Origin: Alitta virens
Taxonomy: Eukaryota; Annelida; Polychaeta; Phyllodocida; Nereididae
NCBI GenBank assembly: GCA_932294295.1
Contig: OW028576.1
Location: 27,969,227-28,033,226 of the forward strand
Length of the DNA: 64,000 bases
Direction of reading: 5' to 3'
Positions 10,777 through 45,476 of the stretch are shown piece after piece. Every line of letters starts with the position of its first letter. Position 1 is the stretch's first letter. The notes beneath the pieces were generated by a model. It worked only from the letters and a program-made list of their open reading frames with translations, did not search any database and was not told the origin of the DNA. A program made the position numbers and the translations under genes.

Positions 10777-12500
10777 CAGGCGTCAGCTGGTTTATTAATC
10801 ATTGAACTACACAGAATATCAATTAATCCTAGATATGGCTGCATCACTACACTCAGATTCCCTGTAGAAGACTTCTAATTGATTCAAAGAGTCATTGACC
10901 CGAGAAGAGATGACAGTTTTGTTATTTAATGAAAGGGTGTGTGACATTCTTAGTAACCCAAACTTTATTATATTTTTAGTATGTACATTTTATTCATGAC
11001 TAAGACCAGAAAATGTGTGTTTATATTTGTATTTAACCGACAGAAGCAATTGGAGGTGTGGCCAGGATGTAGCTTAATATACAGTTGCCCTTAGCAACTG
11101 TAAACACAAAAGACGATCAACTGATTTCTGGTTAATCTCTGAGTCACATTTGCAGAGGTGCTGTGTCGCCAATACTTTACTTATGAAGGATTAATAGGCT
11201 TATCGAAAGTATGTGAAGAATGTTCTTTAAACATTTGAGGCCAAACGGCCAAGGATTAGTGGAGGTATGAACATTGATCCTACACAACATTGTCATGCTA
11301 AAAGATCATATTAAATATATACCCGGAATACTCTCCCTCGACCCTTCAGAACAATTAGTTTGCATTATCATTGATGTTTGATAATATTATGTTTGATGTT
11401 CAAAAAAATAATAATAGAAGAGCAGGTTGATGCCACAAGTGGAGTTAATCCCCTCGTCCAACAAAGGAGTAACTTTCTACCCCCCCCCCCCCCCATCGAA
11501 AGGAAATTGCTCCGTATGTGATCATAATAGCTCCATTGAAATTTATGTGCCTATTGTCACTCTTTATCTCATTTCATCAATTCAAATTTATATCAATTCT
11601 GTAATGTCAAAATTATAAAGTGGCCTCTCAGAAGCGAAATACAATTATCTCAGCTGGGTCTCCTTGCCTCTTTTTTCCCCCATGGGGCTTAAGAATGTCA
11701 TTGCCATCGTCATTGTCAATCCCTCTGAGAGAATTAAAGTTCGTTATTAGTGGCTACTGTGAATACCTATGGGGTTTTTTTTGCTACTGATGCCAACACA
11801 GTTAGTTCATATGTGACAGATAACTAAATATTGGTAACCCTTAAGTATCTCAATCATTTGCGGTGTAACTGTAATTATACAAAAATCACAAAAAATCTAA
11901 ACAAAAAATATATATTCATGCTCAAGATATATAAACACAATTACTGCAAAAAAGGAACAACCTTTACATTAATATGAAAATAAACATTTTGTCACATCAC
12001 AATATATTCAGACACTTCCAAATATTTAAAAGAAGGGTAAATTGCAATAGAAATAAAATAGTTAAAGATGCCATCATAGTCTCTTATTTTATACAATTTA
12101 CTAAACCAGTGCCTATCTTCAACTGTGACTTTCCAACTAGCACCATCACATATTACATTTTTGGAATTTTCCAGCGTGTCTGACTTACATTTTGGCATGA
12201 CATCGATTATCTATACAACAATAATTTTAAAAGATAACCATGCACAATATTTTATGATAAATACAACATGTGTCCTACTTGGAGATATCAATGAAATTTA
12301 CCACAGCAATTTCCTCAATCTCTGTTGTATTAGGTGTATAGTCCCAGCAGTCCAAATGTCCATTTTATGAGACATCTATTTGTTGTATCTCCTCAAAAAG
12401 TAGGTTTCTTATTCTTTACCTATATTTTCTTCCACTAGCCATTAATACTTTAACATAAGTCACTTGCCTTTGTGACCTCTACTGTTTTCCCTGATGAACA
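10777..12500. other. 3' flank of receptor gene copy 2, no gene seen
   Basis: This aligns with the flank of copy 1 downstream of the stop codon and includes a second RFX-like palindrome at 11,084. Small open frames here differ in frame and length from those in copy 1 and are judged non-coding. Confidence 0.6.
11084..11098. promoter_or_regulatory. RFX X-box-like palindrome, duplicate
   Basis: GTTGCCCTTAGCAAC is identical to the copy at 1,039, although neighbouring bases have changed. Function is not shown. Confidence 0.4.
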
Positions 12501-15500
12501 TCAACCAACCAAGATGAGATAATCGTTCTCATCTTTGTCGTCATCTTTTGTTTTGCCATGTTCTTCAGTGTCATTTGCATTTTCCACACCAGTTTTAACA
12601 CCATCAGGACTGTGTTTAGAGTCACCACATTCTGTAGTCTCACTTGTGGCTTTATCTTCAATAGATTCTCCATCCTCAGCCATTGTCTGCTTCACTCCAG
12701 ATTCCATGTCTGGTTCAAAAGATATATCAAATAAATTGTGACAGTTATTCAGGCACCTCTATGGTTATTATTAAGTTCATACACTATGTTAATTATTAAG
12801 TTCACATACTCTTTAAATCATACCATAAGCATGCAAATGAGGTCATATTGCCATTCATTGATTTCTCGGAACAATAATTGCAGGAAGGATGCCTCAAAAC
12901 CCATAATGACATTATCTTAGAGATATCCTACTATATTATTGTAAACCCATAGAAAATATATAGCAGAAAAGAACAGAGAGAATCTGAGCTTGAGCTTGAA
13001 AATCTTACTTTACTTACCTTTAGTGGTGGGGTCAGCTTTGGTAACCTTAGGCTGTTCAGTCTTGATATCCTCAAGTAAGGGACAATTTTCATCAAGGGTT
13101 TCATTCAGATCTATTTTTTCATTGTTCTTGTCAGTAGTTCTATAAAGTAATATCAATAACAAATATATATATTATGAGTTTTTTGTCATTGTGTTTTTTT
13201 GTTGATTGTTTTTTTTTGTTGTATATCTTTGTCCTATCTCGGGACATACCTTTTTTTGCCATCCAGCAGTGTGTATAAAGTCCCAGATGAGCTCTTGGAG
13301 CTGTTGTCATCATCATTAAGATTTTCCTTGCTTAGACCCATGTATTCATTTTTTGTGCTTTCCTCACTTGTATCTGAATCCCCATCCTGGCTTTTGTTAC
13401 TTTGGTTGTCAGTCTCATTGGAGTCCTTTTTGTCCTCAACAACTTCATCTGGGGCATCTTCATCAAGCTGTGCCAGAATCTTCTCATCAGGTGGTGCACT
13501 TACGTGAACAGAAAAATATATCCAATAAATATGGCTGTTTTCATAGGGATTATGTTGACAAAGAAGGTACTATAAGTAAAAGGGCCTAGGCTTTGCCTGA
13601 TGATACCAGTTTATGTACACCATTCAATATAGTTTAAGAAGTTTTCTTTCTGAGATTGGCTGAGATTAAATGTATGGCATCTTAATCTGAGAACATTTAA
13701 GGGATCAGATATAGAGTTTGCAGCATAAGATGTAATGGGATGCGTGTATGAACCCGTAGTGGTTTACACGCCCGTTATCTCAACCTACTACTTCTACAAA
13801 CACAAGTATGTTCAATTTTACTAACCTTGGGGGGAGATACACTTCATCTTTGTCTGAATCTGAAGATGACTGATCCCACCAGGCATCAACAACATTTGTT
13901 TCATGGCACACTGGAGCACGCAGCAAAGATGGCGTTAGTCTTTTGCTTTGGTCTCCTAGAGTTGCCCTGTAAGAAATATGCAATATATCCAAAATAATAA
14001 TTTTGACTATAAAGCAGAAATATAATAGAATGAGGTGCAAACAAAGTTATGCACCATAAGTATAAACTATAAACTGTGAAGGCTTGCTGTAAGAATTTGT
14101 TAATAATTTTTTGCATGTAGCAGTGCCACAAATATCATAAGATGAGATATGAAAGTTTGGTATGAGGTCAACAATAAACACTATAATACCTGGATGGCAG
14201 CAGTAATTCTCCTCCTTTGGCATTTGATCCAATGGATTTCTCCCTTCTCTGGCTGATTTGATGTATTTCCCATTTGCGTGGAATGTAAAGGATGTCAAGG
14301 TCTTCCCTTAAATATTTGTTTAAGAAAATATCATGTAAATATCCTGGGTATTAGTTAGAATCAATTTGTAGTGAATATATGCTGATGTGCCATTGTTTAT
14401 ATGTTTGAAACAAGTGATATTAGTATTATTATTACTTGGGTGGCAAGGGCAATTCGCGCTTTAGCATAGTTGATCCAGCACTTTGCACCAATGCCTGGCA
14501 CATTGGAGATGCTTCAACACCGACGCTCTCTACGCTGTAAGTGCTTGAGAATTCTCTGAAAACACTAATAAGTGACATTTTCAGATATTTTGTTCTGAGA
14601 GAAAACTCATTCCAGCCAACAGATTATATCACTCTATTTCATTTTCGTAAAGATGTTCAAGTTCTAATTAGAAACATAGTCACTTATGATGAAAGTCACA
14701 TTAGTTTGTACCTGGGTGGTTGGGGAAGCTCACGTTTCTTCATAGTGGACTCTGCACTTGGACTCAAACCTTGGCACTCAGGGAATGCTTCAACCTGAAC
14801 ATTTGGGATGCTATGTATACTTCGAAAGATTGGTGATCCCCTGGAAAAATTAGAGACTTTTAATGACTGTTATAGCTTTATGTATTTGCTAACATAGAAA
14901 TGTTACATTTAAACATTGTTTGTGTTATTATGTTTCATTTACCTTTGACTTTTGTCCCCCAGATCCATGCTCTTGACATCGATGTAGTTGTAGTCTTGTT
15001 CTTGCATTGTAGATCGTTTCCTAAGACATTTGACTTTGTGTTTCCTGAAGATAAAGAGTTAGGATTACTCACCACTGGCATATCACACAAATGGAAAATA
15101 TTTACATGGTATATTTTGACAGTACATGGTCATCTCCAAAAGTGAAAGTTATCCACAATATTTCAAATGGCATTTGCCACCAGATGTTCTACCTTCTTAC
15201 AATTCTGAGCCCCATCAATATCAATTATATATGTTAATTTCACCTGCAAAATAAGACTGCAGCCTTGATGAATGCAAGGACAGCAGCTAACAACAGTCCT
15301 CCAAGGACTGGTGCGACCATACTGGTGCCTGAAACTGTAACAATAACACCCTATTTAGTAAATTGCTATCAGTATATAAAATGTTTATGCCATGTTCACA
15401 CCCCACTATCACCAAATAGAGAGAGACAATTTTGAAAGATAACAAAAAAACACCCAACTATATCATGTTCCAACAACACCTAATCTTACTCAATCCCACC

Positions 15501-17819
15501 TATGTAGAATAATATGGAACTTCAAATTACCTTCAGTTGGAGTAAGCTCAAATCCTGAAGAATAATGACAATGATAGATAAGGTTGAAAACCCACCAAAA
15601 ATATGAAAATGTATTGCCAAATTAAGAATCTAAGCATGAATTATTTTTAAGAAATGTTTTTTCAGCAAACCCAGGAACAGCATGAGGCTGATAAATGTTG
15701 GTTGTGTGTTAATATCCTGCATACCATTTATTAACAATTATTTATTTGAAAAAATGTATGACCTACCTGGTTGCGATGTTCTGGCAATTATGGTGGGCAC
15801 TGCTAAAAGGGAGAGAGCGCAAGCTTAAAATCTAGGTCAACAAATTTTTTTTTATTTGCAGACCCATCAACTGACACACAGTAGCAAAGGCAAACAAATA
15901 AGAAAATCAAATGAACAGCAGGGCACAAAAATGTAAAAATCGTTTCAATTAAAGACCCAAAATAAACCTACCTGGTTGTGAAGTGTGGGCAATTATGGTT
16001 GGCACTGTAAAAAGGGAGGAAATGCTAACTTGAAATTGAATGGCAACAAGCAACTGACATACAGAAGCAAAGGCAAACAAATAAGAAAATCAAATAAACA
16101 GGAAACTTAGTTTGTACCTGGTTTAGATGTGCAACGGACCTTCTTATTCTCATCTCCCTGACTGTCAACTATATGAATAATAAATACAGTAAAATTGATT
16201 GCAAAAACACTGAGAAAAAAAGAAAGTAATATTAAAGAATATATCTATTTCTTAAAACTTTACTTATGACTAATGCATATGTTGCCAACCACCACGACAT
16301 GCTTAATAATTGCTCCATGGAAAGGCTATCATTTCATAATAAAAGTAGTAATATTTACCTAATAGTTCAATCCAGTACCTCACTTTTGAGATACAGCTTG
16401 CTGGACTTGTAAATGTAAGGTTAAATATCCAAAGACCGTCTCCATTGAAAGACTTGTATGGGGTGTAAAGTTGTCTTGAGTTTTGACACAATTTTGGCCC
16501 GGGAGAATTTTTCACGCCACGACAAAATTGTGTACAGCTCCAATAAGGTGTAAATTCATAAATCCTGATCTTCATTGTCATATTATTCCCAGATCCTTGT
16601 CCATCTGCTTGAAGTGAACAGTCGACATTCTGAGAATCTGAATATTCTCCTTTCTTAAAATTCTCATTCATCAGAGTTATCGTTGATGATTTGAAGGTAA
16701 GAGGGAGAGTGGATGATTTTGCTATCTCCAACATCTGTATGTCTGAAATATTGTATGAACTTCTGTCACTCTAATCTTAAATGTTATTTTGCTGTCAGCA
16801 GCAAGGTAAATCCTAGACATCAGGGAAGTGATTATATATATGAACGAATTGCCTTGAAAATGTGAGATGTGCAACATAAGGTAATCTAAAACTATACAAA
16901 AATCATTTAGAGTTAAAGTTCTCTTGTTATCAAGTCAACACAATGAATCTTTAGGGTATTTGCAATGCATATTATACTATACAACCTATCAAGCTTATCG
17001 TACGTACCCATTGTACACCAGTATTCCACATGCACACATTCTTTGTGCTTGTTGGGGACCTCACATTGTTGATGAGCATTGCACTTCTGTAATATGTAGG
17101 AGGTCAGATTTGATGTAGTTTTGACATCCACAATTACTATTTGAAATGAAGAGCACTGAATGCGGACTGTTTCTTCACAGTTTGATATACTATTACTGTT
17201 CACCACATCCCCTGAAAGGAAATATATGTGTACATTTTGCTGTTTTTTTTTTCTAAATCACAATCTATGATGTTTTTGATGAAAGTCTTTAAAACATTTC
17301 ATCTGCATTGACAGAATGACTGCATTCAGTTTTTTCCATGCAGCATGTGTAGTAGAACCTGGCAAAAATTGATATATCAGACTATCAGTATTTTATTTTT
17401 ATTTTTCAGTTCCTATGGTAAAATTTGGGGGTTCTGTCGATCATTTTGATATATGTAGGTTTTCAATATGGTCATGTTTGTTGTAAATAGGAAGCTTTAT
17501 GTGCTTTATATAGGATAAAAACCCTTTCTGAAGAGCTTCCTTGCTCTAATTAGACTCGTACCTATGCATGCTCATTATAAGTCGGCTGACTTGAATAGAA
17601 CCTATTTAACAAAATGTCACATGATTTTCTTGGCGAAGCAGTAAAGTTTTAAAATTGGAATTACAAAATAAATATTGGAATTTTGTTATTTAGAATATTT
17701 GATGAAGTAAATTAATAACAGCAAGCACTGAAATAAAAACAAAGCATTACCAAAATATGTCATAACCACTTACCAATCAATAAGAGCAAAAATAAGGTGT
17801 CCCAAGATATGGCCCTCAT
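12501..17819 (-). CDS. SUEL-lectin-like single-pass receptor, copy 2 (684 aa, 16 exons)
   Basis: Exons: 17819-17774, 17211-17008, 16742-16359, 16168-16118, 16004-15972, 15799-15767, 15554-15531, 15334-15244, 15044-14943, 14840-14712, 14555-14436, 14306-14190, 13966-13826, 13498-13250, 13139-13018, 12709-12501. All phases agree. The domain order matches copy 1: signal peptide, SUEL-like domain with the same six cysteines, a second extracellular domain, stalk, transmembrane helix, and a long acidic tail with the YIDV, YMGL, YTLL and C-terminal YLIL motifs kept. Differences: the 33-nt stalk exon is present twice, the next stalk exon is 15 nt shorter, the tenth coding block of copy 1 is 9 nt longer here and adds a tyrosine (STYSVESV), and the transmembrane helix carries a lysine (K282). 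By hand count the extracellular exons differ far more between copies than the tail exons do. It sits head to head with the Ig-CARD receptor gene. Confidence 0.87.
15244..15334 (-). other. Transmembrane exon with central lysine
   Basis: The exon encodes GGLLLAAVLAFIKAAVLFC. The lysine codon (AAG, 15,264-15,266) replaces the ATA of copy 1. In vertebrate immune receptors a basic residue here usually pairs with an acidic residue in a signalling adaptor. That parallel is inference, and this receptor also keeps its own tyrosine-bearing tail. Confidence 0.8.
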
Positions 17820-19027: not shown

Positions 19028-22000
19028 ATGAAAACATTTAGTGGAGTCATGTTGAGACAACACATAATTGTCCTCATCATTGCGATTTTTCCCTTGGCAG
19101 GTGAGCAAATCAGGTTTTGGTTCTCTCTCTCCCTCTCAAAATAAATATGAAGTCAATTGAACTTTGATTTTGCTCCTTTATTTGTAAACCATATTCATGA
19201 GGTTTTAACAAATCAGCCACATTGAAAATTTTATATTGGAAATAATATTATATGAACCAGTAATCCAGTTGTTGGCAACTGTGGAGAAATGCTAACACAA
19301 TATATATTTTTTTCTGATAATTAATAATAATATCAGAGGGTAAGGTGATCCTTCTTCATATTATATTAAAGCATTTTGGGGATTACTGACTACTAAGATT
19401 TTTTGATGTAGGCAAACTTCTCCAAAACCAACTTGTGAGGTTTAATTTTCATCCCAAGCAAAAACTTGGCCAATGATGTGAGAAAACACATTAGCAGGGA
19501 TGACGGTGTAATACTATGAAAGATTTAACAATGCGATATGCATGCAAATTGTTCTATACATTTTCAGAACCAGCTGAGGAAATAATCACCCCTCCTGCAA
19601 ATGCAGCACAAATATTAGGAGGAACAGCTCAGTTCAAATGTCAAGTGAATCTCGACAAAGAACCCAAAATGCAATGGTCATTCAACAATCTCATAATCTA
19701 TAACTATCAAAGTGGCGAAGAAGATTATCCAAAAAGGCCCAATCAGGGTTATTATGCGGTAAAAAGAGATGCTTTTTTCTTCACACTTTCAATAAACAAC
19801 TTGAGGTATGAAGATGGTGGAAATTACACGTGCTCCATAGTCAAGAACCAAAAAAGTGCAGTGTTGGTAGTTATAGGTATGTATAAATTTCCATTATTCT
19901 TGTCATGATGTAAATATCCAAACCTGTACCAGTACTTTCTGTACTTTATTTCACCACTACTCATTTTGTCAAGGTTTTTTTTTGTAAGTTTATTTGCCAG
20001 ACTACTATATATGCTTAGCGATCTGATACAAATTAAAGATAGAGAATTTAGAGAAATATATTGTGATATTGAGATAATAATTACTTTAAATTATGATGAA
20101 ACATAGTTGAATTAAGTAAATTGTATGCTATTAAATGGTAGTTAGAAGCAAAGCTTTGATAATTTGGAAATATTTTTTGAAATTAAGGTTGTTGATAATT
20201 TATGTATATAAGATAATTCTTTGTCGTTCTACTACATGCCTTTGATAAAACTTTCCCCGCTTCAAAATGAGACAACTGTTGTGAAATAATGTCATTCCAT
20301 ATGCATGCTCCCTGATATTTTGTCTTTTTTTTTGCATTGTTCTGTTCTTACCCTGGGCATTATATTTCTTGTATTTGGATAATTGTTATCTGCTAATTCT
20401 TGGAAATAGTTTTCATACTGTATGTGCGGAAATATCTTCATTTTATGCTGGTACACTATAAGTTGATTAATATAAAAATCATCACTTTCAGCAATTAAGC
20501 AAGTTTTCCTGCATAATAAACTTTTGAAGAAAAAAAAAGTGACTTTATCAGTAATTCCCCATCCCAACAGCCGGCTTCAATTATATTTCTATTTGATATA
20601 TAGAATGAAGGTTAATAGCAACGCTGATTATGCATAATAATAAAATATGGTACAAGGGACCTCTCCATAACAGTTGGTATTATAAATAGATTAAAAAATG
20701 TACTGCCATTCAACACCCTATTACATAAACATAATTCTCTCATTGTGTCTCATTTAAGTTTTCGTGTAATCCATTGGGGATGGCAATGTAAGAATATATC
20801 TGTGTTACAAAAGAAAGCTGTGAGGTTTCTCACTAACTGCAAATACAATTGCCATATAAATTGCTTATTTAAGAAACTAAAACTTCTAAAATTATATGAT
20901 ATTTGTGCACTGTATGACCTGAAATTATGTTGTAAATGAATTAATAATGTTTTACCCTCGTGTCTTATTGATCTATAATCAGTGTATAGAGATGATCCAC
21001 ATAATTATGAAATTCGTCAGAGAGCAATCGAGAACTCCACAAATTAGCCATGAGTTTGCAGGACAGAGTATTAAATACAGATACATTAAACCCTTAATGA
21101 TATGCCCATAGTTTGTAGAGAAAAACTAAATACACATATTTAAGGTGGTTTCAAGAAGTATATAAAAAATTGAATAGTTGCATCATATGTGCGGAATGTA
21201 CTATTGATAATTGTTATATCTGCTTGCATATTGTAAATATATAAGCCATGTTATCACCTCACTTTGTTAATTTATGTATTTATCTCTTCAATTGGAAGTT
21301 AGTCCTGTTCAAACCAACACCGATGAGAGCAGTTTTTACACTTTCCTTATATAACGCAATGGCATCTCTCTAGGTGGCCCCACGGTAGCCAAAACTCAAG
21401 TTTTCTTAGTTGGTTCTCCCACCTAAATATATAATTGTTGTTATTGTAATGCTCATTTTCATGTAAATTGCAAATAAATGTATCTGATTCTGAATCTGGC
21501 ATTTAAAAAAAATTTCATCGGTTTTCAGGAGAACCTGCTTTGGTACCTCCACCATCTATTCCTGTAGAAGGGGAAACATCAAATTACACTTGTAGAGCCT
21601 GTTTTAGTGGACCTTATCAAGATAAAATAGCAAAAGAAAATTTTCCACAGCTAACTGTGAGCGTGGAGAATTCAGAACAACTGCCTCTGAGTAATCCAAC
21701 CAAAGTAACACGCGAAGATGACCGCTATTGCCTGGTTAAGGTACGCTGGAACTTTATTTGCTGAAATAAATATTATGAAATTTTATTATTCACTGTCCTT
21801 CATTTGTATTTATTAGGAAATAAGTTTCTGCAATATTTTATTTTGTAAACCCTATTGACCCGTTTTTGGATTGTGTTTAGTGACGAACAATGTTGGGATT
21901 GTGCGTACAGAGCACTGTCCTGTAATAAAATATTAACAATCAAATAAGTTCACATAAACTAATTTAAAAGTATTATTTATTGTGAAGGTCATATATATGT

Positions 22001-25000
22001 CTTACAGAAGGCCACCATATATTGTGGTATGCTTTAAAGAAGGTACGGGGGTGAAACTTTTTAAACAATAATTTTTGGCTAATAAATCTAATGGGAAATG
22101 TTTAGTTGTTGTAGTTATTTCAGTGTAATCATCTCATTAAAACATTCCTTGATTTTAGGTCTTACCTCTGACAGTTGATGCCAGCATGCATGGAGAAAAA
22201 ATGACATGTGAAATAGCAACTGAAAAACCAGCAATGAAAGTTATTAATTCCACCGATATTTTTGTGCATTGTAAGTCATTTATTTGCTCAATTTACCTTC
22301 CATATGCCTCAACACTAGAGTGATATTTAAATTGTATAATACCTTAAGAAATCTGTAATTTTTTTCTTCCTTTTTGTTTAATTGAAATTCTTTTGGATAC
22401 ATGATGTTCAATTCCATGTTACAATAAATTATATTGTGGATTTCTATTATATTTCTGTCACCCTGAGTTTTATTCAGAAGCACTGTGCTTTGGTATTGTG
22501 ATTTACAGACCCTGTGCGTAATATCACCTACATCCCGAACAAGGATAAGTATGATGTAGGAAGCAGCATTTCCTGCACGGCAGATGGCAATCCACCTCCA
22601 TCAATAGTATGGAAAAAGTTGGAAGGTCAGTGTCAGGAAAAATTACCTGTTTGACTTATAGCTTCTAGTTTGTAAATTAGCTTTGTGACAAGTTTATTTC
22701 AACATATAATTATATGAGTGTTTGTGTAGGAAAAGCGATCACTAGCACCCGGCTGAATATCACAGAAGACTTGATCGGACATACATTTTGGAGGTGCACT
22801 GCAACAAATACAATACAAGGAGAAGTATATGAGGTCAACATAACAGTTATGGTTAATGCTGGTGAGTTACATTTAATTATTTTGCATCTATTGAGTGGAA
22901 AAAACAAGTCATAATCAGGCAAGTAAAGCTTTTGTAGAAGGTACTTTTTTGCATACTTTGCGTACATGCACTTCAAGGCAAGGGATACTTGACTACAATA
23001 ATAAACAGATTTATTTCATTATCATCTGGATTCTCCTTTGATGCCAAAGAACAGCACACAAGCAATATTTTTACTGAGTTTGACTGAATAAGTGCTTTCA
23101 TGATATATTTGTAGTATTAGACATTGCTGACACTGGAGAACAAAATGATAATACAAATGGTGAGTAAATTTTTTTATGCTAAATTATCAATACTTTTTAC
23201 ACACAGCTTGCTTAAATGTTGCAGCATGGGCCAAAAACTTATTGAACACTTGCAAGGATGCAACTAAAAATCTTGACCATAATCAAAGTATTAGGTCATA
23301 TTATGCCCCGAAATATTTGTGGACTGAAAAAAACAAGTCTTTACCTTAAATGTTACAGTTAAAAAATAATAATAATAGATAAGATAATCATAAATAGAAT
23401 GGACCAGTGAGTTCAAGCATACTAAGCCTTGTGTTAAGTTTGCTCTATAAATAATGGTTTGCATGTCAAGATGATATTCAGGTCTTGATGTTATTTGATT
23501 TTTTTCTCCTTTTACTTAGCTGGCACATATGCATCGGCAATCATTATAACCTTGTTGGTCATCTTTGTGATTGTAATTGGACTTTCCATGGCGTGTAAGA
23601 TAATTTAGCTTTTTACATAATTATATACGATTATATGCAATTTTTAAAATAAAAAGTAAGCTTCATTTCAAATGAATATTATTTCAACTACAGGGAGATG
23701 CAAGCAAAAGAGGCCATATAAGGTTGGATATTTGAATTCCATATTTGTATATGTGCTATGTAAAACATTGAGTTACCAAATTTTGGGCAAAAAAAAATTA
23801 TATTTATTGTGTATATTTACATTTTTTCATGATTTGATGCCTTTTTAATGTCCTAATAATTTTGCCATTACTGTTTCAGCTTTTATCACAGTAAGTATTA
23901 TAATAAGACCCAATGGTTATGTGGTATATTTTTATATTCCCCACGAGTGGACAGATTGGCCAGGATTCACGAGTGGCGTTATACCACATATATCCACTTG
24001 GGTCTTATTTATACCCCACAATTTTCACTTTTAGTTGAGCTGCCTGGCTATGCATTCATGTAGTATAGAAAAAATTCATGAATAACAATTTTTGCCATTG
24101 ACCAATCAGAGCATTGCATAACTGTCAACAACGTCATCACCTCAAAACTTTCTGGGACATTTTGAGGTTAATAAAAAAATTTACGAATGATATTTACAAA
24201 CCAGTTGTTAAATATTTCTTGTCAGAACTGTTTTTTATACTAGATTTGGACAGAAAATATTTTATTGTTCCGTATTATCCGATTGTATTACCGAAGCGAT
24301 GACGCTCCTGTGACGTTGCCCATAGCAACACAGCCACATAATGGATTGCATCTGTGGACTGAACAGACCATTGACTTTCTGTTACGTTTTTTGGTCCTAG
24401 AATCGTTAATTCTTGTCCGATTTCAAAAATTCTAACCTTTTTAGAGAGCTGACAATTTTATCTTTTAAATAGTGGTAACCCCGAATGTTGTTTTAAAGGG
24501 GCGGCGTTAGTTTAAACGGCGAAGCGCTTAGCTGCCAAAAGTGATTTTTTGTCATAGGCCTGCCATACATAGAAGTATGTGGTATACATTTCCCATCCTT
24601 GTAAGGTAAGTCATGTAGTATACACATGTAAACCACATAGGCTATACCACATGGCTTTTCTATGTGGTATACAACTGATTGTGGAGTATCAGCATTTTCT
24701 TTTCAGAAACTCTGGAAAAACATATTGAGAGGCAAAATAATCAATTAGTCTAGTCTGTATGTATATGGCCTCTGCAACAGTTGTCCATTGCTTGTTGTAA
24801 TATATTTTTACCTTTGATATAGGACATTTAGGATGCACTAATCTTTGAAAACTGAACACTGTGTCAATTTTCAGTTTGATACATTGTGCAACCCAAAAAT
24901 TAAATCATTTATTTTACAGATCTATAAACAAATATGAGGACCTAGAAAAGAATGGAAATACGATTGTTAAAATGCTCCCAAGAGAAGGAAAGAAGATACT

Positions 25001-28000
25001 AGAGCGTGATCCAAAGATTTTCCTGGAAATGACTAAGAGTGCCAGCACCTTGATCAAATCTGACCATTACACTAAAGTGATGAAGGTGAATTGATTCAAT
25101 TTTATGTACTAAGATGCTGTGCTACATCAGCTTATCACCTTTTTCTGATGTTATTACAAGCATTTTCCATAAGCCATGAAATAATATATGGTTTGCAGAT
25201 TATGGCCGATATTTATAAAGATGAAGCAATTTCGAAGAAACTAAAAGAAGGGCCATTAGATTGTTTGATTCAAATGATGGATGAAAAAGAACAGCTTCAG
25301 GTTCTGGTTGAAAATCAAGAAAAGACACTTTCACTAATCCAGGTAGGTCTATTTGAAAAATAATCAAAAAATAAACACGTTTCTCATGGTTTAACTGAAA
25401 AGATGGTCGTAAGTCATTATTCTAACTTGCAAAATTGGTTCCATAATAAATATATAATAATGAATATAGGGAGTAACACAAAATAACTGCAATCTCCCTT
25501 TCCCCCAAAATAGAGCAGTAAAAATATCTACACAATTTGACTGATATCTTTATTTTGCTTGAAAAAATCAGCTGTCCGCAAGTAGATATTATTGTAAAAA
25601 ACCCTAATGCACATTTGAGTGCAATAAAATGATGAATAAATAAAAACGTAACAAAGACGAACAAAAACTTTTGGGAACTATTCTTGACATAACATGCAGA
25701 GAGTGTATATCTTGTAAGGTTGATGACTCTTGCAATTAAGAACATATAAATTCAGGGCTTCCTGACTGAAACCCAGTAAATAGTTGGTATAGATTATTCA
25801 CTTTGTGGCAATTATCTTGTGATTCTACTTCATACTTACTAATAATCACACCAGAGGCTTCTTTAAAAATCGTTATAGCATTTTGTTGGCCAAACTGCCA
25901 GACCATATTATTTCCATTTTGTAATTTTTCTATATTTATGTCATTTGCTATTGCATGCTACAGATGCTTATAGAAGCTGAGGATGCTCATAGTAATCCAG
26001 AGTGCATTCAGAAGGTCGTAAAGGCTGATCTTAGTGATTCAGAGAGCGTTCAGATGACCAAAGAAGCTGATGATCACAGCCGTTCAAAGTGTGTTTATTA
26101 CGAATGGTTTTGTAACATTATTAAATAATCATTTTGCACCAACTAAACCAAGAGTAAAATCCTGCAATTACAAAATAAATTAATGTGTTATATATATAAA
26201 TTATATAATACTAATAGATGCACTAGATAACTATATTTGCATCGGGTGATACTGAATTCTTGGACAGCATTGTGAAATGCAAGATGCATAAAAGAACCTG
26301 GTCAACCTCAGGCAAATTTAAATCACTTTTAATTTCAGGAATCAGTTGCTGTTATACCTCATCACAAATTCCGAGTATTGCTCATATTCAAAGCATACTT
26401 TTAAATGGACGGAAGAATTGTTTTCAACTTTGAAACTTCTGCTTGAGAAAGGAGCAGATCCGACATGGATAATGGAAGGATCAGATCCAAAGAAAACAGA
26501 CCTGTCACTCACTGCCATGTATCATTTCTGCTCAGTCACCTGTAGACTCTTGCTCGAGAATAACTATGTCGATCAAATACAGGATGTCATGTTATCGTTC
26601 ATGAAATATATCTCCCCAACCACTGAGTATCATAAAAACACTCCATTACATGCCCTTGCACAATTTGATTGGAAAGTTCTAAATCAGCACCTTGAAAAAA
26701 AAGGTCAACTACCAATACATTTGTTTGAACATTACAAAACAAATATTGATGCAATGAAAAATAAAATTCCCGGAATATGTGATACAGAAGATTCGCGTGG
26801 AAGAACCCCTATGCAGCTATTCCTGGAAAAGATTACAGTACATGAGGAAATTTTAAAAGATGTTATTGATATTGTAGAGTGTTTGAAATCAAAAACCAAC
26901 ATAGAAAATCCTGGTAAAGATGGCCGCAATGTTATGCATTTCCTAGCTGATGCATATCCTGTACTCTATCAAGGATCTCCCGAAAAGGTACAAGAAACCC
27001 ACGCATCTGATGACAGACCTAAAGTCAATTTGGATGAGGATGAAAAAACTGAAAATGAACATAGTTGCCAGAAAGACAAAGAGCGATGTAAGGAACTTCT
27101 TTCAAAGCTCTTCAGAACCTTGGAAACTGAAAAAAATGTTGGTATGCAAGACTATGGCGGACAAACTGCTCTGCATATATTAGCAATGAAATTGAATAGA
27201 GTCATACTTGATGAACACCATGAAATATTCAGAGAGCTTGTAAAAATATTTGTAAGCACTGAATATAACAAAGTATCTGCAGATCATGAGGGGAACACAG
27301 TCTTGCACATTTTAGCGAGCCAAGTATATGAGGAGCCTGAATTGGGAAAAGGCCTCCTACCTGTCTTTGAGATGCTCACAACAGCTCAAAATGTGAATGC
27401 TAGGAACATGCAATGTAACACACCATACAACTGGATCATGCAAGGTTTATTACGGAATCACAAAGTTCAATCTGATGCAACGGTTTTCTACAAGATTCAA
27501 GAAATCTTCAAAAAATATGGGACTGTTTACAATGAATTGCCACCTATTCAGTATGTACAAATAATTTATCATTTCATTGTGTGTTCCACATAAAATATTG
27601 TATGATCCTCAATGATGCACTTTATTTGCCAAGTCAATATCCTAATTAAATATTGATCATGATTTCAAAGACACTATCCTCTTGATTATGTATTTTGTTT
27701 ATAAACTCACTGTTTCAATGTCATAATAATTCATACTGCTGTTAAACACCCCCATCATAATAACATTGATTTTATTCAGTAAAACTGATTCAACACAAAG
27801 TGTTTAATTATGAATGTTGCAGGAACCATGAAGAAACCAATGAAAAGGAGAAAACACAGGTACGTTGCACCTCCCACCTATGCTGCTGCCCTGCCCTCTA
27901 CAAGCAAAAACAGGCTAATCTAATTAAAAAGCAGTTCAATCTAAGAAGGGTGCTTGTGAAGGGTGTTACCTGTTCTTATTATCATTTAGCGTAACACTTT

Positions 28001-30419
28001 GAAGTAATTTGTTGTACTTCAACAATTATCATAATTGTATTAATTGTTGCAAAATAAATATACTTTGCTACAACCAATAGCATTTACTTCCAAATTAGCC
28101 AACCCGGCAGGTTATTTAGTTTATTTGGCAAAAATTTAAGTTTGCTGTTGACAAATACCAGTAAGTGTTCTGCATGAATGGTTTTTGCCAAATAAACTAA
28201 AATAACCTGCCAGGTCAACTAATTTGACAGTAAGTGCTACTGGTTGTAACAACCATAACATTTGTCAGTGATATTTGGTATTCTAAAATAAAATGGTGAT
28301 ATTAGTTTATTTGCCGTAAACACCATTGGATGCAGCACACAGCATGAAATATTATGCAATATCACACAACAGATAACAATGAAATTTCACCGATATATGT
28401 TCTGAGTGCCTACAGCTATTCTATGTATTGTAATAAAGATAACAGTGAAAGTCTCATTTAACTGATCTTCGAAATCTTTCAGACCGAGAAACAGCAATCT
28501 TCATTGGCAACATCAGAAGAAACGGTGGGTATTTTTTTTTTAAGAAGATCAGTACGCCTTTAATTAGTTTGAAGTAAACCTTTAAACTTAATTTATCATG
28601 TATTTTTCCTCTGTAAACAGTATATATTCGGAAATAACCCAACTATTATGTGCCAAACCAATTCCTCCCCCCCCCCAAAAAAAAAACTGTTGTCATCATT
28701 GCTGTACATACAAATTTGAATATATTTCATATTTTAGACTGTGGAAAAGCTTAAGAGATTGGACGAGTATATTAGACTTCCCAAAAGGCAAGAATACATC
28801 CGTGCCTATCAAAAGGACCTCAGACACTATCTTATGTTAGATGAAGAGTTCCTGGATGATCTGAAGGACGAACAAGTGATAACGCCTAAGGAAAAAAAAT
28901 TAATACAGGTTGGTACTTTGTCTCAGTACACCAGTGATACTGAAATAATGTTTCATCATCATCATAATAACTTGATAGCATGCCATTGTTTACTTTGGTC
29001 ATTCAGGTATAAACCAGTAATGGTAGTTTAACTGTGCTACTGATGTTAAAATAAATATATCCAAATTGACTATGAAGGAGTTGAGTGTTTAGTTTATAAC
29101 AAGGATTTACATCCAGCTGCATACATCTTGGCCAATATCAATGTTTTGATCGAATGGGTATGACATATTTGTACCCTGTATACTTCCAGTGATTATTGCT
29201 ACTGTATTATACCATTGTTACTGATGCCTTAGTACAAATATATACCACTGCTTTAGTTACTTATTATCTGTTGAGTAATGCTTTCCATGCTTATGATCTC
29301 AAAAAGGCTTTGCATAAGTTAAGCATACTCATTTCTAAAAGTGTTATTGATTCTCTGAAAAAAAAATTCAACAAATTCTTCAGCTATTGTCTGTTTACAA
29401 TTATGTATGAAGTATAATGTCTGAAATGTATATATCTAGTGTCCTTGAGAGCATGTATATGACCCTGAAAGTCAAATTGATTTTCAGATTGCTTCTATCT
29501 TTTCTTAAGCCAATGGAGCAATGTCTTTTCTTCTTTTATTTAACTTTCTTCTTTATTTGAAGAGTATTATTTTCTGTTTTTAGCCAGATACACAATGGCA
29601 TTATTACAAATATTCCCAATGCCATATTTTAACCAAAACCTAGTGAATGGATGGAATGAGTCATATAAAATGTTTGTGCCCTTAGTTTTATTAGAATTAT
29701 CAGAACTATTTGTAGGTGCTGTCTGTTATTTGTATAAGTTTATTTTATTTACTCAATACCTTTAGAACCCCTTTTTCCATTTTTATTTCCTTCTATTTAA
29801 GTTTACAAGGAGACCTGGACAAAACAATTTTCCAAGCAATGCAATAGTGGCTCAAGCATGAATTTCCCATAAATTATTCTTATTAGTTATTTTTTACTTT
29901 CACGTTCTTCCTAGTAGTTTTAATTTTGTGTTGTTGATTTCAGTTACACTGAGTGATATCCTTTGTCATAACAGCTAGCATTCTGAATATTACAATTTTT
30001 TCTTTGACATTACAGGGAGGACCAAACAAAAGTGAGGATGAACGAATAACAGATATGATTACAATCATGTGGAATGTTGAAGATAATGAAAAATACTTGA
30101 AGCTTCTGGAAGCTTTTGCTGAGGAGTATGATGAATTGGTGGATTTGTTAACAGGTATGGATACTTGGTTATTGGTTCTTCCTTTTTAATTTACACCATA
30201 TGATATTAAGTATTGCATCTGAAAGTGCTTTGTTTCATTCATGGTAAAAACAGTATTGTCTAAAGTCAGAGTCCACAGTTTAATATGTGTGATGATGTGT
30301 TGGATGTGCAAGGATTGCTTAGAAATGTAAAATAAAAAAAATATTAAATTTAAATGTTGCAGTTCACCGTTCCTGTTGTTATTTCAGGTGGCAATTGGAG
30401 AAGGAAAACTTTTTCATAA
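19028..30419 (+). CDS. Ig-domain receptor with cytoplasmic ankyrin repeats and CARD (1,060 aa, 19 exons)
   Basis: Exons: 19028-19100, 19568-19876, 21529-21740, 22159-22270, 22509-22625, 22730-22861, 23115-23159, 23520-23594, 23694-23722, 23880-23890, 24920-25085, 25199-25342, 25964-26088, 26339-27550, 27823-27859, 28483-28524, 28738-28908, 30016-30154, 30388-30419. All phases agree. Order: signal peptide (1-24; a second in-frame Met at 19,049); three Ig-like domains (25-127, 128-235, 236-318) with paired Cys and Trp; stalk; transmembrane helix (about 338-357); a helical membrane-proximal region (372-475); degenerate ankyrin repeats in one large exon (517-921; TPLHALA, GQTALHILA, GNTVLHILA); a linker; and a C-terminal CARD (about 965-1050) with the six-helix pattern and a closing LVDLLTG. 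By family knowledge a CARD binds other CARDs to nucleate signalling complexes, so a surface sensor feeding NF-kB or cell-death signalling is inferred. Both terminal exons are tiny, so the exact ends are less sure. Confidence 0.85.
20740..21500 (+). mobile_element. LINE 3'-end fragment in an intron
   Basis: The segment encodes the carboxy end of a Jockey/CR1-like polyprotein (a region matching LQKKAVRFLTNCKYN, then LFKKLKLLKLYDICALYDLK), continues with frameshifts, and ends in an A/T-rich tail with AATAAATGTATCTGATTCTG. It lies between the first and second Ig-domain exons of the receptor gene, in the same orientation. Confidence 0.7.
23520..23594 (+). other. Transmembrane exon of the Ig-CARD receptor
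   Basis: The exon encodes SAIIITLLVIFVIVIGLSMA with a Thr/Tyr-containing outer flank. The next exon supplies the basic stop-transfer sequence WRCKQKRPYK. This places the Ig domains outside and the ankyrin-CARD part inside. Confidence 0.88.
23880..23890 (+). other. 11-nt microexon of the Ig-CARD receptor
   Basis: The 11 bases CTTTTATCACA are flanked by a strong acceptor (ctgtttcag) and a strong donor (gtaagtatt). The exon before ends in phase 0 and the exon after begins in phase 2. Joining them directly gives an early stop, while including this microexon restores the frame exactly. Confidence 0.7.
23893..24690. repeat. Intronic repeat with internal inverted repeats
   Basis: An arm near 23,902-23,929 (AATAAGACCC...GTGGTATA) returns inverted near 23,985-24,013. 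Further copies of the TGTGGTATA unit recur near 24,580-24,675 in both orientations. No coding capacity is seen. It looks like a non-autonomous repeat or several nested copies; limits are approximate. Confidence 0.5.
24315..24329. promoter_or_regulatory. RFX X-box-like palindrome in an intron
   Basis: GTTGCCCATAGCAAC has full RFX half-sites and is preceded by a TGACG half-CRE. It lies inside the repeat-rich intron after the microexon, so it may belong to a repeat rather than to the gene. Confidence 0.35.
28065..28252. mobile_element. Palindromic MITE-like element
   Basis: The two ends are inverted copies of each other for about 70 bp: the left arm starts TTGCTACAACCAATAGC and the right arm, read in reverse complement, starts TTGTTACAACCAGTAGC. 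The arms flank a short unique centre. It lies in a receptor intron. No clear target duplication is seen. Confidence 0.7.
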
Positions 30420-30635: not shown

Positions 30636-30641
30636 AATAAA
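30636..30641 (+). terminator. Polyadenylation signal of the Ig-CARD receptor
   Basis: AATAAA lies about 217 nt downstream of the stop codon in an AT-rich 3' untranslated region. Confidence 0.6.
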
Positions 30642-32632: not shown

Positions 32633-32913
32633 GATTTAGTCTCAAGGATAAATGACTAAGTTATCAAGGAATTATTGTGATTTTAACATGGAAGCTAGGA
32701 AGCTATCCACGGAACATTTTGACGAAGAAAGGAAGTCCCTTCTTATTTAACTTATTGAAGGAATTCATGTCAAAGCCCATGGCAGACAAGCAAGCGCCAC
32801 TTCATCACTCAAGTGCGTAACAACACGGAAATGAACGCAGCCAGGTTGGTGTTGTACATGAATTAGTAAAAGAAAATACAGTCTCGCACCAAGGCACTCC
32901 TCCGCTTGCCAAG

Positions 32914-33987
32914 ATGAATGAAGACCAATTCCGACAGTTCCTGAGGAGCCAAACTGATGGGCATGGAAATACGGCAGTTCTGTTGCAAAATCAGGAGAAA
33001 CAGTTAAAAGAAAATGGAGAGAGGAGCAAGGCAGATTCCCAAGCTAAGAGAGTCACCGCTTGTGACGGCTCTTCCACACGCCGGTTACGACAATGGTTCC
33101 AGGAAGTGGAACTGACCTTGCCTTATACAGAGAGAACTGTGTATGTGGCTGGACAGACAGCTGAAGGACCTCTACGAGCGGAAGTGGAGATATATCTGTC
33201 TTCATTGCCCGACCGGAAGACTGCGGATTGGGCGGGACTGAGAAAATACCTGTCTGACAATTTTCTGTCCAAACACGAGGTGGACCGACTACGAGATGAG
33301 GTCGAGAAAGTGCAGCAAGGGGCCTATGAGTCCACCGCTGCTTATGGGAGAAGGTACAGGGAAGCGGCCATTTTGGGCTACCCTGTGGGAACCAGGAATG
33401 CTGACCAAGAAAGAGCCATGCTGGGGGCGTATCTCTATGGCCTCCGGGACAAACACATGGTGGAGAGAATGGTGAGGGAAACCAAGCCCACCACGTGTGA
33501 AGAGGCGATGAAGGCAGTGGCGGAGTATGAGGGGGATGAATATCGAGTTTATCGAGCCCTTCATCGCTCCGCCCCTGAAGACAATACAGAGGAGCCCATG
33601 GAGGTTGGGGCTCTGGGGACGTTTACCAAGGAAGGGGCAAGAAAGAAAGACCCAGTGGAGGACTTGAATCGAAAGGTGGATGGGCTTGCTGCCCAGTTCA
33701 CTAAGTTGATGGCATCACTGGCCAAACCCAGCCTCCCCAGAGAGCGTGCCTACCAAGGAGGAGGTGGTCCTCCTCTAGGCAGAGGACAGAGGGGGCGAGG
33801 AGGTCAGTCAGGTGGACGAGAGAGGTCCACATTGCAGTACACGGAGGATGGGAAGCCCATATGCGCACACTGTGGAAAGATCGGCCATATTCGTCGAGAG
33901 TGCAGGACCCGCTGGAGCGAAGCTCGGGGCGGAGCAAGAGGTGCAGTCAGGGGCGGATATGGTCAAAATGCCCAGGGGGGGCGATAA
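32914..33987 (+). CDS. gag: Element A Gag (357 aa)
   Basis: This is the structural polyprotein of the retroelement. It has a capsid-like helical region (YLYGLRD near the middle), a Gly/Arg-rich stretch, and one CCHC zinc knuckle (CAHCGKIGHIRREC) near the C-terminus for RNA binding. The frame is open from ATG to TAA, with a run of seven G just before the stop that probably serves as the gag-pol shift site. Element C carries a broken relative. Confidence 0.9.
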   Translation: MNEDQFRQFLRSQTDGHGNTAVLLQNQEKQLKENGERSKADSQAKRVTACDGSSTRRLRQWFQEVELTLPYTERTVYVAGQTAEGPLRAEVEIYLSSLPDRKTADWAGLRKYLSDNFLSKHEVDRLRDEVEKVQQGAYESTAAYGRRYREAAILGYPVGTRNADQERAMLGAYLYGLRDKHMVERMVRETKPTTCEEAMKAVAEYEGDEYRVYRALHRSAPEDNTEEPMEVGALGTFTKEGARKKDPVEDLNRKVDGLAAQFTKLMASLAKPSLPRERAYQGGGGPPLGRGQRGRGGQSGGRERSTLQYTEDGKPICAHCGKIGHIRRECRTRWSEARGGARGAVRGGYGQNAQGGR

Positions 33988-34002
33988 GCGCCGCAGCGGA
34001 CT
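33975..34002 (+). promoter_or_regulatory. Probable -1 ribosomal frameshift site
   Basis: The run G GGG GGG (33,975-33,981) is in register for tandem slippage from the gag frame into the pol frame one base back. It lies two codons before the gag stop. The following GGCG-ATAAG-CGCC and CCGCAGCGG can form small hairpins. Element C keeps a longer G run followed by the same 12 bases GCGCCGCAGCGG. Confidence 0.65.
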
Positions 34003-37000
34003 GCCAGGCCTATGTGGAATTAAAATTCCATGGACAATGTTTATGGGCCTTGGTGGACACAGGTGCCAGTAGGACTGTGCTGCGGCGCCAGGAATTTGAA
34101 ACAATTTGTAAACAATTGGGGAGACCCACCATCCTGAGGGCCACTCGAGGATTACAAGGAGTAACTGGCCATGATTTAAAGGTGTGGGGATCCACAGAAA
34201 TGTGTGAGGACAAAGTGGGGACTATACCCGTAATAATTGTGGATAAAATTGCACACCAGGTGATATTGGGAAGAGATGTGTTGAGTACCGAGGGGGCCAA
34301 AGTGGATTATGAGAGAGGAGAGCTCCATTGGAGAGGACTATGTCTCCCACTTGTGTCTGGCCCACCTCCGGGAATTGTGAATGGAATTGCGAGTGAAAAG
34401 GCAGTGAGCCTGACCCCAGAGGAAGTGGAGGCAGCTAAGGTCATATCTGAGTGCATGAGACGCAACCCAGACGTCTTCAGTGCGGTAGGACAGCCTCTGG
34501 GACGACACTCGGCGATAGAGGTCAAAATAGAAACAACAGGACCTCCAATAAAGCAAAGGGCATATCGAATGCCTTTTATGAAAAGGGAGGCACTTGGGAA
34601 GAAACTGGATGAGTTGTTAGAGCAGGGCATCATAGTGCCCTACAACTCTCCTTGGGCCTCTCCAGTTGTGTTAGTGGAGAAAAAGGATCCATCAGAGGGC
34701 CCCCGGTTTTGCATAGACTTTACCAAGGTCAACACTGTGACCAAGAAAGATTGCTATCCGGTCCCTCTGATACAGGATGTTTTTGATCAGCTGCATGGTT
34801 CCACCATCTACTCCACTCTGGATCTGAAGTCTGGTTTTTACCAACTCCCACTAGAAGAATCTAGTCAAGAGAAGACCGCCTTTACGTGCTTCCGGGGGCA
34901 ATATGAGTTCACTACGATGCCGATGGGGTTGTCGAACGCGACCAGTGCTTTTCAAAGGGCCATGGACGAGGTCCTGCGAGGCCTCATCGGTGAGTGCTGC
35001 ATGATATATGTGGACGATGTAGTGGTTTACAGCCCGGACGTGGTCAGTCATCAACATCACCTCCAAGCGGTAATGGAAAGGTTTCGGACCTACAACCTGA
35101 CGCTAAATCCCAAGAAATGTGTTTTTGGCCAAGAGGAAGTCAAGCTGTTAGGTTTCGTAGTGAGTGGAAAAGGGTTGAAAGCTGATCCTGATAAAGTGAA
35201 GGCCATAGCAAAAATGAGCCCCCCAGACAGCGTCAAGCAGGTCAGATCTTTCCTGGGCATGACAGGTTATTACCGGACCTGCATGCCAAGTTATGCTCAT
35301 GTGTCAGAGCCATTAGTGGAGCTAACGAGGAAACATTCACGCTTCCACTGGGGAGAGAACCAGCAAAGGAGTTTTGAGACTCTCAAGGATTTATTGATTA
35401 GTGAGCATGTGATGGCACATCCTCGAACCCGGGACCCATATTTACTGTACACTGACGCCAGTGATCTAGCCATTGGTGCTGTTCTTTGCCAGATAGACCC
35501 TGTCTCAGGAGTGGAGAGACCTATAAGTTACCTATCTAGATTACTGTCTCCCACTCAGAGACGCTGGGCGGCAATAGAGCGAGAGGCATACGGGCTGATC
35601 ACAGCGTTAAAGGTGTTCAGGCCTTATCTGTGGGGTGCCAGGTTTGATGCCTTCACTGATCATAAACCATTGGTATCTCTCTTCACGAAGGAGATGCAAA
35701 ACACTAAAATTCAGCGCTGGGCTGTGCTTCTGGCCGAGTTTGGATGCAAGGTGCAATACAGGAAGGGAAAGCTGAACGTGAGGGCAGACATGCTGTCTAG
35801 AATTAAACCTGAACGAATTGACACTTTTGACCTCGAAGAATGGAAAATGGGGGATGAGCTACCTCCTGGATTGCCGGTTGACCTCCCTCTGCCTATATTG
35901 GACAGTGGGCTCATCTCGGAGGATGTCCAGAAGGAACAACAGCTCATGGGTGAATGGGGCGAGGGCCACGACCCGGAAGGTCCTTACGAGGTCCTCCAGG
36001 GACTGCTCTACTCCATACTCAGGCCCTACCCCCATGCGGCAGAGTATCACCGTTTGGTGCTGCCTCCCAAGTTCAGGGATGACATCATAAGACAAGCTCA
36101 TCAGGAAGTCGGCCACATGGCACACATCAAGACAATGAGGAAAATACAGGAAGCTTATGTGTGGCCAGGGATGAGGACAGAAGTGAAACTATGGATCCAG
36201 AAATGCCCAGTGTGTCTTACTCACAGCAAGAGGAAATTACATGCGCCCATGGGAGAGATGCCCATAGCTACCAGTGTTGGGCAACTTATATCCTTAGACC
36301 TCGTAGGACCACTCGTGACATCTCCGCAAGACAATAATTATATTTTGACCATTATTGATCATGCGTCTGGATATGCAGAGTGTCACCCTCTAGCTCGCAA
36401 AACGAGCGAGTGCGTCTGGCGAAAATTACACCAGGAATATTTCTCTCGTCATGGCTATGTGGAGATGCTGCTGTCTGATCTGGGGAAAGAGTTTAATGCT
36501 GCTGCCTTCACCCAATACCTGGCGAATGTCGGAGTAAAGCATAAGAGGACAACGCCATATCACCCCCAGTCCAATGGCAGGATTGAACGATTTAATCGAA
36601 CTCTCAAAGAAATTCTGGCCAAGTTGGTAAACAATGACACCTCGTTATGGCAAGAACAATTAGGCCCAGCCGTACTCTGCTATAATTGTGCGGTGTCAGA
36701 CGTGACCCATCACACTCCATACTTTCTTCATTTTGGACGAAGACCTAGGCTTCCTTTCAACAAAGCCCTGCAAGGAGGAGAGGCCATCTTTGGTCGTCTG
36801 CATGACCTGTACGAGGCACTCCGCACGGCACAACACCTCACCCTGGATTCAAGAAAGCACAACAGGGAAAGGTTGGCCAGGAAGGCCAATGTGGGCAAAG
36901 TGGAAGTGGGTGATAATGTCATTATTAAGGCGGAGGAACCTCTGACGCTAACGAGCCGGTGGGAGCCTCAGTGGCTAGTAACCCAAGTACGAGGAAAGGC

Positions 37001-44640: not shown

Positions 44641-44999
44641 ACTCTATAGTTCCAATGTGAATATTATAATTATCTAAACCTTGATTTCCATGTTTATTTC
44701 TTAATAACCGATTTGATTATTTCCTTTTAAATATGCTAATCTTGACATGTCACTAGAATAAGGGGGATAAGAAACAAAACATATGAAAGGAATTGTATTT
44801 CCCTATCTTTCTTGCTGTGTTTGAAAGAGATCCTAGTTCAAATGACTTGTTCCTGCAATTACTTTCATCATCTCCATTATTTCATATAATTAAAAAGTAA
44901 CCTAAATTAAAGAAATGCTATTCTAGTATTTTCTGTTTGATTACTGGTAATTTAAAAGTGAGCATTGATGAGGTATCATGGAAGTAATAATTTAGAGAT

Positions 45000-45454: not shown

Positions 45455-45458
45455 GATT

Positions 45459-45476
45459 TGGTGCCCGATGTGGGAC
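45459..45476 (+). other. Element B primer-binding-site-like sequence
   Basis: TGGTGCCCGATGTGGGAC begins with the required TGG and agrees with the common tRNA-Lys site in 14 of 18 positions; all four differences are transitions. This suggests a decayed tRNA-Lys site. Confidence 0.45.

Follow-up and report, generated by a model that had tools for sequence, protein, structure and literature searches.

CARD signalling is usually begun by cytosolic sensors or by adaptors recruited to membranes. Among surface receptors, the UNC5 netrin receptors combine an Ig ectodomain and one membrane helix with a C-terminal cytosolic death-fold domain, and receptors of the IL-1R/TLR type couple their ectodomain, which is of the Ig type in IL-1R, to an innate signalling domain. 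The vertebrate protein Caiap is described as a cytosolic CARD-ANK inflammasome adaptor, in which the ankyrin part reportedly binds active caspase and the CARD reportedly promotes self-oligomerisation. AjNLRC4 of the sea cucumber Apostichopus japonicus is described as an Ig-TM-NACHT membrane receptor that oligomerises and whose Ig part reportedly binds microbes (PMC8699970). The preliminary description of the gene reported here had noted that no Ig-TM-ANK-CARD receptor was known to it; none was found in the open-access literature searched, and within that literature the statement is uncontradicted.

The window, a 64,000-nucleotide stretch of the Alitta virens genome (C4:27969227-28033226), contains a gene that was rebuilt from the sequence as 19 exons between 19028 and 30419 on the + strand. 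The exons are phase-consistent throughout, all introns are GT-AG, and the reading frame runs from an ATG to a TAA at 30417-30419. Joined, they amount to 3183 nt encoding 1060 amino acids with no internal stops, in agreement with the 19 phase-consistent exons first proposed. The predicted architecture, in order from the N terminus, is a signal peptide, three Ig domains, one membrane helix, ankyrin repeats, and a CARD. It is well supported, as Ig_3 and Ank_2 exceeded their profile cut-offs and the CARD can be traced through related genes, so that the domain series given in the preliminary description stands. The features are listed below, with paralogous loci of the same genome designated by L numbers.

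19028-19100, + strand: exon E1, start codon and signal-peptide-like segment; 24 of 24 amino acids identical in paralogues L039 and L040
19568-19876, + strand: exon E2, Ig domain 1, phase 1-1; 77 to 80% amino acid identity to L039 and L040, 35% to L042
21529-21740 and 22159-22270, + strand: exons E3 and E4, divergent Ig-like domain 2; both exons present in four paralogues
22509-22625 and 22730-22861, + strand: exons E5 and E6, Ig domain 3; kept in four paralogues
23115-23159, + strand: exon E7, short stalk exon; DNA match at the equivalent position in L039 and L040
23520-23594, + strand: exon E8, membrane helix exon, 75 nt, phase 1-1; also 75 nt in L039, L040, and L042
23694-23722, + strand: exon E9, basic juxtamembrane exon, 29 nt; 29 nt in L039 and L040, 59 nt in L042, phases equal
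23880-23890, + strand: exon E10, 11-nt microexon by which the ankyrin part is brought into frame with the Ig-TM part; 17 nt in L039 and L040, 23 nt in L042, phases equal
23891-24919, + strand: intron 10, with repeat-like sequence inside; 23980-24084 matches another intron of L042
24920-25085 and 25199-25342, + strand: exons E11 and E12, helical cassette before the ankyrin exon; from the model and paralogues
25964-26088, + strand: exon E13, linker exon; from the exon model
26339-27550, + strand: exon E14, one large exon encoding divergent ankyrin repeats; Ank_2 at 1.3e-9
27823-27859 and 28483-28524, + strand: linker exons E15 and E16; from the exon model, E15 also from a null-intron test
28738-28908, + strand: exon E17, first half of the predicted CARD; 58 to 71% amino acid identity in five paralogues
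30016-30154, + strand: exon E18, second half of the predicted CARD; kept in paralogues
30388-30419, + strand: exon E19, C-terminus and stop; from the exon model
30636-30641, + strand: AATAAA, candidate poly(A) signal; from the sequence

The window protein belongs to the immunoglobulin superfamily by the curated Ig cut-off, as Pfam Ig_3 matched two stretches of the joined protein (7.2e-14, 52.5 bits versus a cut-off of 30). Ig domain 2 was assigned from a weak signal together with its position. The signal peptide and the single hydrophobic helix, with basic residues after it, were judged by eye; helix exons in the paralogues had hydropathy values of 3.1 to 3.4, the candidate for this exon in L041 being either 66 or 78 nt long. 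By profile cut-off the protein is also an ankyrin-repeat protein. Ank_2 matched the joined protein at 6e-8 (33.6 bits versus a cut-off of 27.3) and, over exon E14, at 1.3e-9 (38.9 bits), so the ankyrin assignment made earlier held when put to a profile. The repeats are irregular, and an AlphaFold model of E14 in isolation was uninformative (pLDDT 45). Across the family the signal was consistent, with Ank_2 found at E≤0.001 in all 12 aligned members. A profile of these ankyrin exons retrieved 44 sequences from PDB at E≤1e-4, with numerous designed ankyrin proteins among them, the top matches being at 7e-11 (chain RBL4) and then 2e-8 (a chain named "4 ankyrin repeats").

Searching the 671-Mb assembly (23 contigs) with the whole protein gave at least 74 matches, a number that is a lower bound. 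Ankyrin-exon loci picked from these matches numbered at least 39, of which 29 were on C4, and the matched piece was stop-free in 37 of the 39. A multigene family with at least 39 ankyrin-exon loci in the genome had gone unseen in the preliminary description. The CARD matches in this assembly all fell on C1 to C14. In the mitochondrial sequence, judged by eye, COX1 reads AGA as Ser, ATA as Met, and AAA as Lys at conserved positions, and open reading frames taken for ND3, ND2, COX1, and COX2 follow one another in this order; these features suit a lophotrochozoan protostome and speak against a cnidarian or an echinoderm.

A near-identical gene copy, with a 99% identical ankyrin exon, is found at C4:26.41 Mb, 1.58 Mb from the window gene. 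At four further loci (L039, L040, L041, and L042), the ankyrin exon is preceded by Ig exons and then E11 and E12, in the order and orientation of the window gene, and a hydrophobic-helix exon lies between the Ig exons and E11 in all four; the exon series of L041 begins within Ig1. Exon identities between the window and these four loci were about 28 to 79%, barring the identical E1 of L039 and L040. Ig, ankyrin, and both C-terminal exons were found ordered on one strand at five of six loci, namely the window, the C4:26.41 Mb copy (for which Ig1, ankyrin, and C-terminal exons were placed by position only), and the genes of L040, L041, and L042. At L039 only the first C-terminal exon was found and the second was not, and L040 has lost the second cysteine of Ig1, so some copies may be decaying. 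Among 21 matches of the E17 type, selected by hand from 42 rows, 12 follow a same-strand ankyrin exon at a distance of 0.6 to 8 kb, and the other 9 have no ankyrin exon within 15 kb upstream. As judged from these exon series, the window gene is a member of a predicted multigene Ig-ANK-CARD family duplicated in the same genome.

A key difficulty in the gene model was the join between the Ig-TM and ankyrin parts, where E10 is a weak link. From the window alone this microexon was no better than chance. Under a generic splice model with preset frequencies, an in-phase microexon as good as E10 turned up in 151 of the 1000 Markov introns and in 25 of the 69 antisense slices used as nulls, the null introns having the length and composition of the intron that holds E10. 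Null rates were unstable with small splice models fitted to 13 or 16 of the window gene's own introns (30/400 and 6/50, or 215/500 and 44/69).

The chance-level microexon is one of several observations that would suit a different reading, in which the region holds two genes in tandem that duplicate together, one for an Ig-TM adhesion receptor and the other for an ANK-CARD protein of the cytosol. An in-frame start codon lies inside E11 (KMLPREG), and elsewhere in the genome the E11-E12 cassette recurs beside further ankyrin exons of the family, with E11-E12-ANK cassettes adjoining one another. Ankyrin loci on C12, C13, C7, and C1 also have no Ig exons in the whole-protein match list, an absence that says little because the same search overlooked those that L041 and L042 do have. 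We consider the tandem-gene reading very improbable, however, for two reasons. The splice acceptor before E11 is among the strongest in the gene (99.5th percentile), which makes E11 unlikely to be a first exon. In addition, the chain from E8 through E9 and E10 to E11 has equal entry and exit phases in the window, L039, L040, and L042 even though lengths have changed, as if the exons were translated together. In that order of loci, E9 measures 29, 29, 29, and 59 nt, E10 measures 11, 17, 17, and 23 nt (all 2 mod 3), and E11 measures 166, 190, 190, and 178 nt.

Because L039 and L040 are 95 to 98% alike, this phase evidence comes from three lineages; exon lengths that vary while phases stay the same across the microexon are what would be expected under joint translation of E8 to E11. 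In L041, where the corresponding intron is 3.7 kb, several microexon candidates scored 11 to 17 and none was assignable. The second join, from the ankyrin part to the CARD via E15, is strong by itself. An in-frame bridge as good as E15 was found in 0 of 1000 and 0 of 69 nulls with the generic model, and in 1 of 500 and 0 of 69 with a gene-trained model. The phase chain that the paralogues keep from the membrane helix through E9 and the microexon to E11 argues for one gene in place of two, as had originally been claimed for the Ig-TM and ankyrin-CARD exons.

The case for a CARD at the C-terminus was built on the homology of two exons across the family, since none of the whole-architecture members scanned (the window, L040's gene, and L041's gene) scored above the Pfam CARD cut-off. 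On the joined protein, CARD matched residues 968-1051, covering profile positions 4-84 of 85, at E 0.034 with 14.6 bits versus a cut-off of 23.9. The C-terminal 127 amino acids scanned separately gave 18.7 bits (E 0.0018), also below the cut-off. No Death, DED, or PYRIN model matched the joined protein at E≤10. The CARD match disappeared in the reversed domain (0/1), in full shuffles (0/2), and in another helical part (0/1), and one of five shuffles that kept the hydrophobic pattern gave a partial CARD match of 15.1 bits. Among PDB sequences, CARD8 chains ranked highest for the domain, at E 0.13. An HMM of seven vertebrate CARDs gave the window domain 6.5 bits, which 10 of 2000 full shuffles equalled; 183 of 2000 shuffles that kept the hydrophobic pattern scored as high, so by this HMM the domain could not be told apart from them. 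Protein-database searches returned nothing at E≤1 for the tail among 7879 candidates or for the ectodomain among 1549 candidates, blanks that are uninformative on rarity because ordinary Ig proteins were missed as well. The ncbifam models likewise yielded no relevant match.

Extending the scan to the family strengthened the signal. Twelve C-termini were compared, a set that left out L068 (a close relative of L062) and the partnerless single exons L052, L054, L071, L075, and L077. CARD matched 10 of the 12 and was the best family in each of those 10, and three (L064, L066, and L067) exceeded the cut-off of 23.9, with 33.3, 27.5, and 25.9 bits, the best at 5e-8. These three were counted as family by their C-terminal exons and not by Ig or TM exons, and for L064 and L066 no ankyrin exon among the listed loci lies within 15 kb upstream. 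L040's gene (L022) reached 19.0 bits, below the cut-off, and no CARD match at E≤10 was obtained for L011 (L041's gene) or L062 (a near relative of L042's gene). Death and DED gave no Pfam match at E≤10 in the scanned family C-termini.

Death domains are common after ankyrin repeats, and a reader might take the C-terminus for a Death domain or some other helical or death-fold domain instead of a CARD. This reading could point to the cut-off missed by the window and by every scanned whole-architecture member, and to the 2 of 12 family C-termini that lacked a CARD match. We regard it as improbable, given the CARD rankings above and the outcome of profile-profile comparisons. When the 12-member family profile was aligned with eight CARD exons from the same genome, Prob was 93.6 and the score 42.2; none of 200 nulls, made by shuffling columns separately among hydrophobic and among polar positions, reached that score (maximum, 22.7). 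With six Death exons from this genome (a seventh, L084, was left out for want of an open frame), Prob was 0.47. Four members compared with 15 CARDs gave a Prob of 90.7, equalled in 0 of 300 nulls of each of two kinds. When the family was aligned with the seven vertebrate CARDs only, the comparison was weak (Prob 28.7; one of 200 nulls did as well), a further point for a domain other than CARD. Control comparisons gave a Prob of 99 for own-genome CARDs versus vertebrate CARDs and 0.4 for own-genome CARDs versus own-genome Death exons. The C-terminus of the window protein is, by homology, a CARD-like domain predicted to span two exons, and the Death domain reading was not borne out. For the CARD named in the preliminary description, the family profile stood above all 200 nulls in the comparison with own-genome CARDs, and the window domain fell short of the Pfam cut-off (18.7 versus 23.9 bits).

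Sequence comparison of the window with L039 revealed unequal divergence along the gene. From 18249, where the L039 sequence begins, to 22335, an interval that includes the upstream region, E1, Ig1, and Ig2, aligned pieces were 86 to 91% identical, introns included. Identity fell to 75% in Ig3; past 22874 the introns could not be aligned, and the ankyrin exon retained about 36% protein identity. A closely similar 5' half followed by a divergent remainder is what one expects where that half has recently been exchanged or converted between copies. For Ig1 plus Ig2, dN/dS between the window and L039 was 0.83 (dN 0.106, dS 0.127; three introns, 0.06 to 0.13), the two Ig3 exons gave unlike values of 0.10 and 0.99, and the ankyrin exon gave 0.38 between L039 and L040. 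No dN/dS value above 1 was found. These values indicate that much of the ectodomain is changing fast without exceeding neutrality and that the ankyrin exon is constrained. Fast change in Ig1 and Ig2, along with exchange between copies, would be compatible with a role in recognition.

Clustering, sequence exchange, and fast ectodomain change are also typical of allorecognition systems, and the clustered copies, exchange, and fast ectodomain seen here would equally suit a receptor for adhesion, guidance, or allorecognition. The architecture would then be right, with homophilic Ig domains outside and a CARD that serves as a generic oligomeriser or scaffold. The Ig domains of SYG-2, DSCAM, and FGFR, which are the ectodomain's closest relatives by sequence in PDB, lean the same way and carry little weight for adhesion, because Ig domains match one another broadly. 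On the whole we find the adhesion or allorecognition reading rather unlikely.

A function in CARD signalling is the reading we hold to be somewhat probable, in which the genes encode an expanded family of type I membrane Ig-ANK-CARD receptors whose CARDs, clustered by ligand, would recruit a CARD effector with an inflammatory or death output. The Ig ectodomain would bind a ligand, be it a microbial surface or a second receptor of the family, and binding would cluster the receptors. The ankyrin module may bind or present a partner, on the model of the ankyrin part of Caiap. Clustered CARDs could then nucleate homotypic CARD assembly and thereby recruit a CARD-bearing effector, with inflammatory or death signalling as the presumed result. 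Candidate partners in the same genome include an open reading frame that pairs a CARD with a protein kinase domain (L005) and one that pairs a CARD with Bcl-2 (L001). Two other open reading frames (L003 and L004) have two CARDs each, and at C3:66.21 Mb and C2:56.71 Mb a CARD match lies next to a Death match in a RAIDD-like arrangement.

A broader proposal, which we put forward tentatively, is that these genes represent an undescribed animal receptor class with a variable Ig ectodomain, ankyrin repeats, and a CARD in one polypeptide. Ligand-driven clustering at the plasma membrane might itself nucleate CARD signalling, with no need for a separate sensor in the cytosol, in an expanded and clustered family whose recognition exons may be exchanged across ankyrin-CARD backbones. 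If true, a CARD-bearing receptor would remove the sensor or adaptor step and provide another route from the outside to inflammasome- or apoptosome-like assemblies. The expanded family, recent exchange, and fast ectodomain together would make these genes a candidate recognition repertoire.

Each of the described systems differs from the window gene in several parts. UNC5 receptors have thrombospondin repeats outside and ZU5-UPA-Death inside, without ankyrin repeats or a CARD, and Pfam listed neither ZU5 nor Death on the window protein. Receptors of the IL-1R/TLR type have a TIR domain inside, and death-fold proteins join them through the adaptor MyD88. Caiap, as described, is like the window protein in having both a CARD and ankyrin repeats, in the reverse order: its CARD is N-terminal with 16 C-terminal ankyrin repeats, whereas the CARD of the window protein is C-terminal. 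The available part of Caiap's description includes no Ig domain or membrane helix, in contrast to the window gene, where Ig and TM exons come first. AjNLRC4 is an echinoderm protein described with a NACHT domain and two membrane helices and without a CARD, and the available part of its description does not mention ankyrin (PMC8699970); Pfam found no NACHT on the window protein. Because AjNLRC4 and Caiap each share part of this arrangement and miss the rest, an Ig-ANK-CARD receptor would be placed with the death-fold-coupled surface receptors.

The Ig-ANK-CARD gene has a near-identical copy 1.58 Mb away on the same contig (C4:26408279-26418885), which reflects either a segmental duplication of recent date or an error of the assembly. 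Relatives of its helical-cassette exons, E11 and E12, which precede ankyrin exon E14 in the gene, also come after ankyrin exons at other loci in the assembly (the overlapping L017 and L029, as well as L019 and L038). Because of this placement, the helical cassette plus an ankyrin exon seems to be a repeating unit across the wider family. Within the gene, intron 15 contains a fold-back inverted repeat (window 28065-28252) that is roughly 75% identical to itself when reverse-complemented.

The gene's neighbors in the window include receptor-like genes and mobile elements, as follows.

2437-17257, minus strand: two receptor-like genes in tandem, by eye single-pass with long tails carrying proline and tyrosine motifs
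32821-39642: LTR element that looks Gypsy-like by eye and encodes protease, RT, RNase H, and integrase
42100-55670: region with more mobile elements
43588-43908: RT fragment
46003-50639: second LTR-type element, read by eye
52262-53833: SWIM and YqaJ ORFs
54684-55241, minus strand: DDE_Tnp_4 transposase

One exon of the receptor-like pair (6534-6842) had a weak, below-cut-off match to V-set_CD47 in Pfam. The third ORF of the Gypsy-like element is possibly an envelope-like gene, since it matched Baculo_F slightly below the cut-off, and fragments related to this element were recognized by eye at about 57.8 to 64 kb. The first ORF of the second LTR-type element had no match in the Pfam scan.

Searching the whole assembly for CARD matches also revealed a CARD-encoding ORF of about 93 to 108 aa, near-identical copies of which are apparently dispersed over chromosomes. 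Identical scores recurred among the 150 scored rows (39.6 bits in 30, 43.3 bits in 19), and the single copy that was read (L085:884-1210) scored 39.7 bits against Pfam CARD. The pattern is as if a mobile element had captured a CARD.

Elsewhere in the assembly, CARDs occur in other combinations. One minus-strand ORF (L001:658-1773) encodes both a CARD (61.8 bits) and a Bcl-2 domain (77.6 bits), each far above the cut-off. A different ORF (L005:1318-3186) has its CARD at the N-terminus, together with a protein kinase domain. RIPK2 also combines a CARD with a protein kinase, in the reverse of this N-terminal-CARD arrangement, so that the L005 ORF resembles RIPK2 in domain content but is opposite in domain order.
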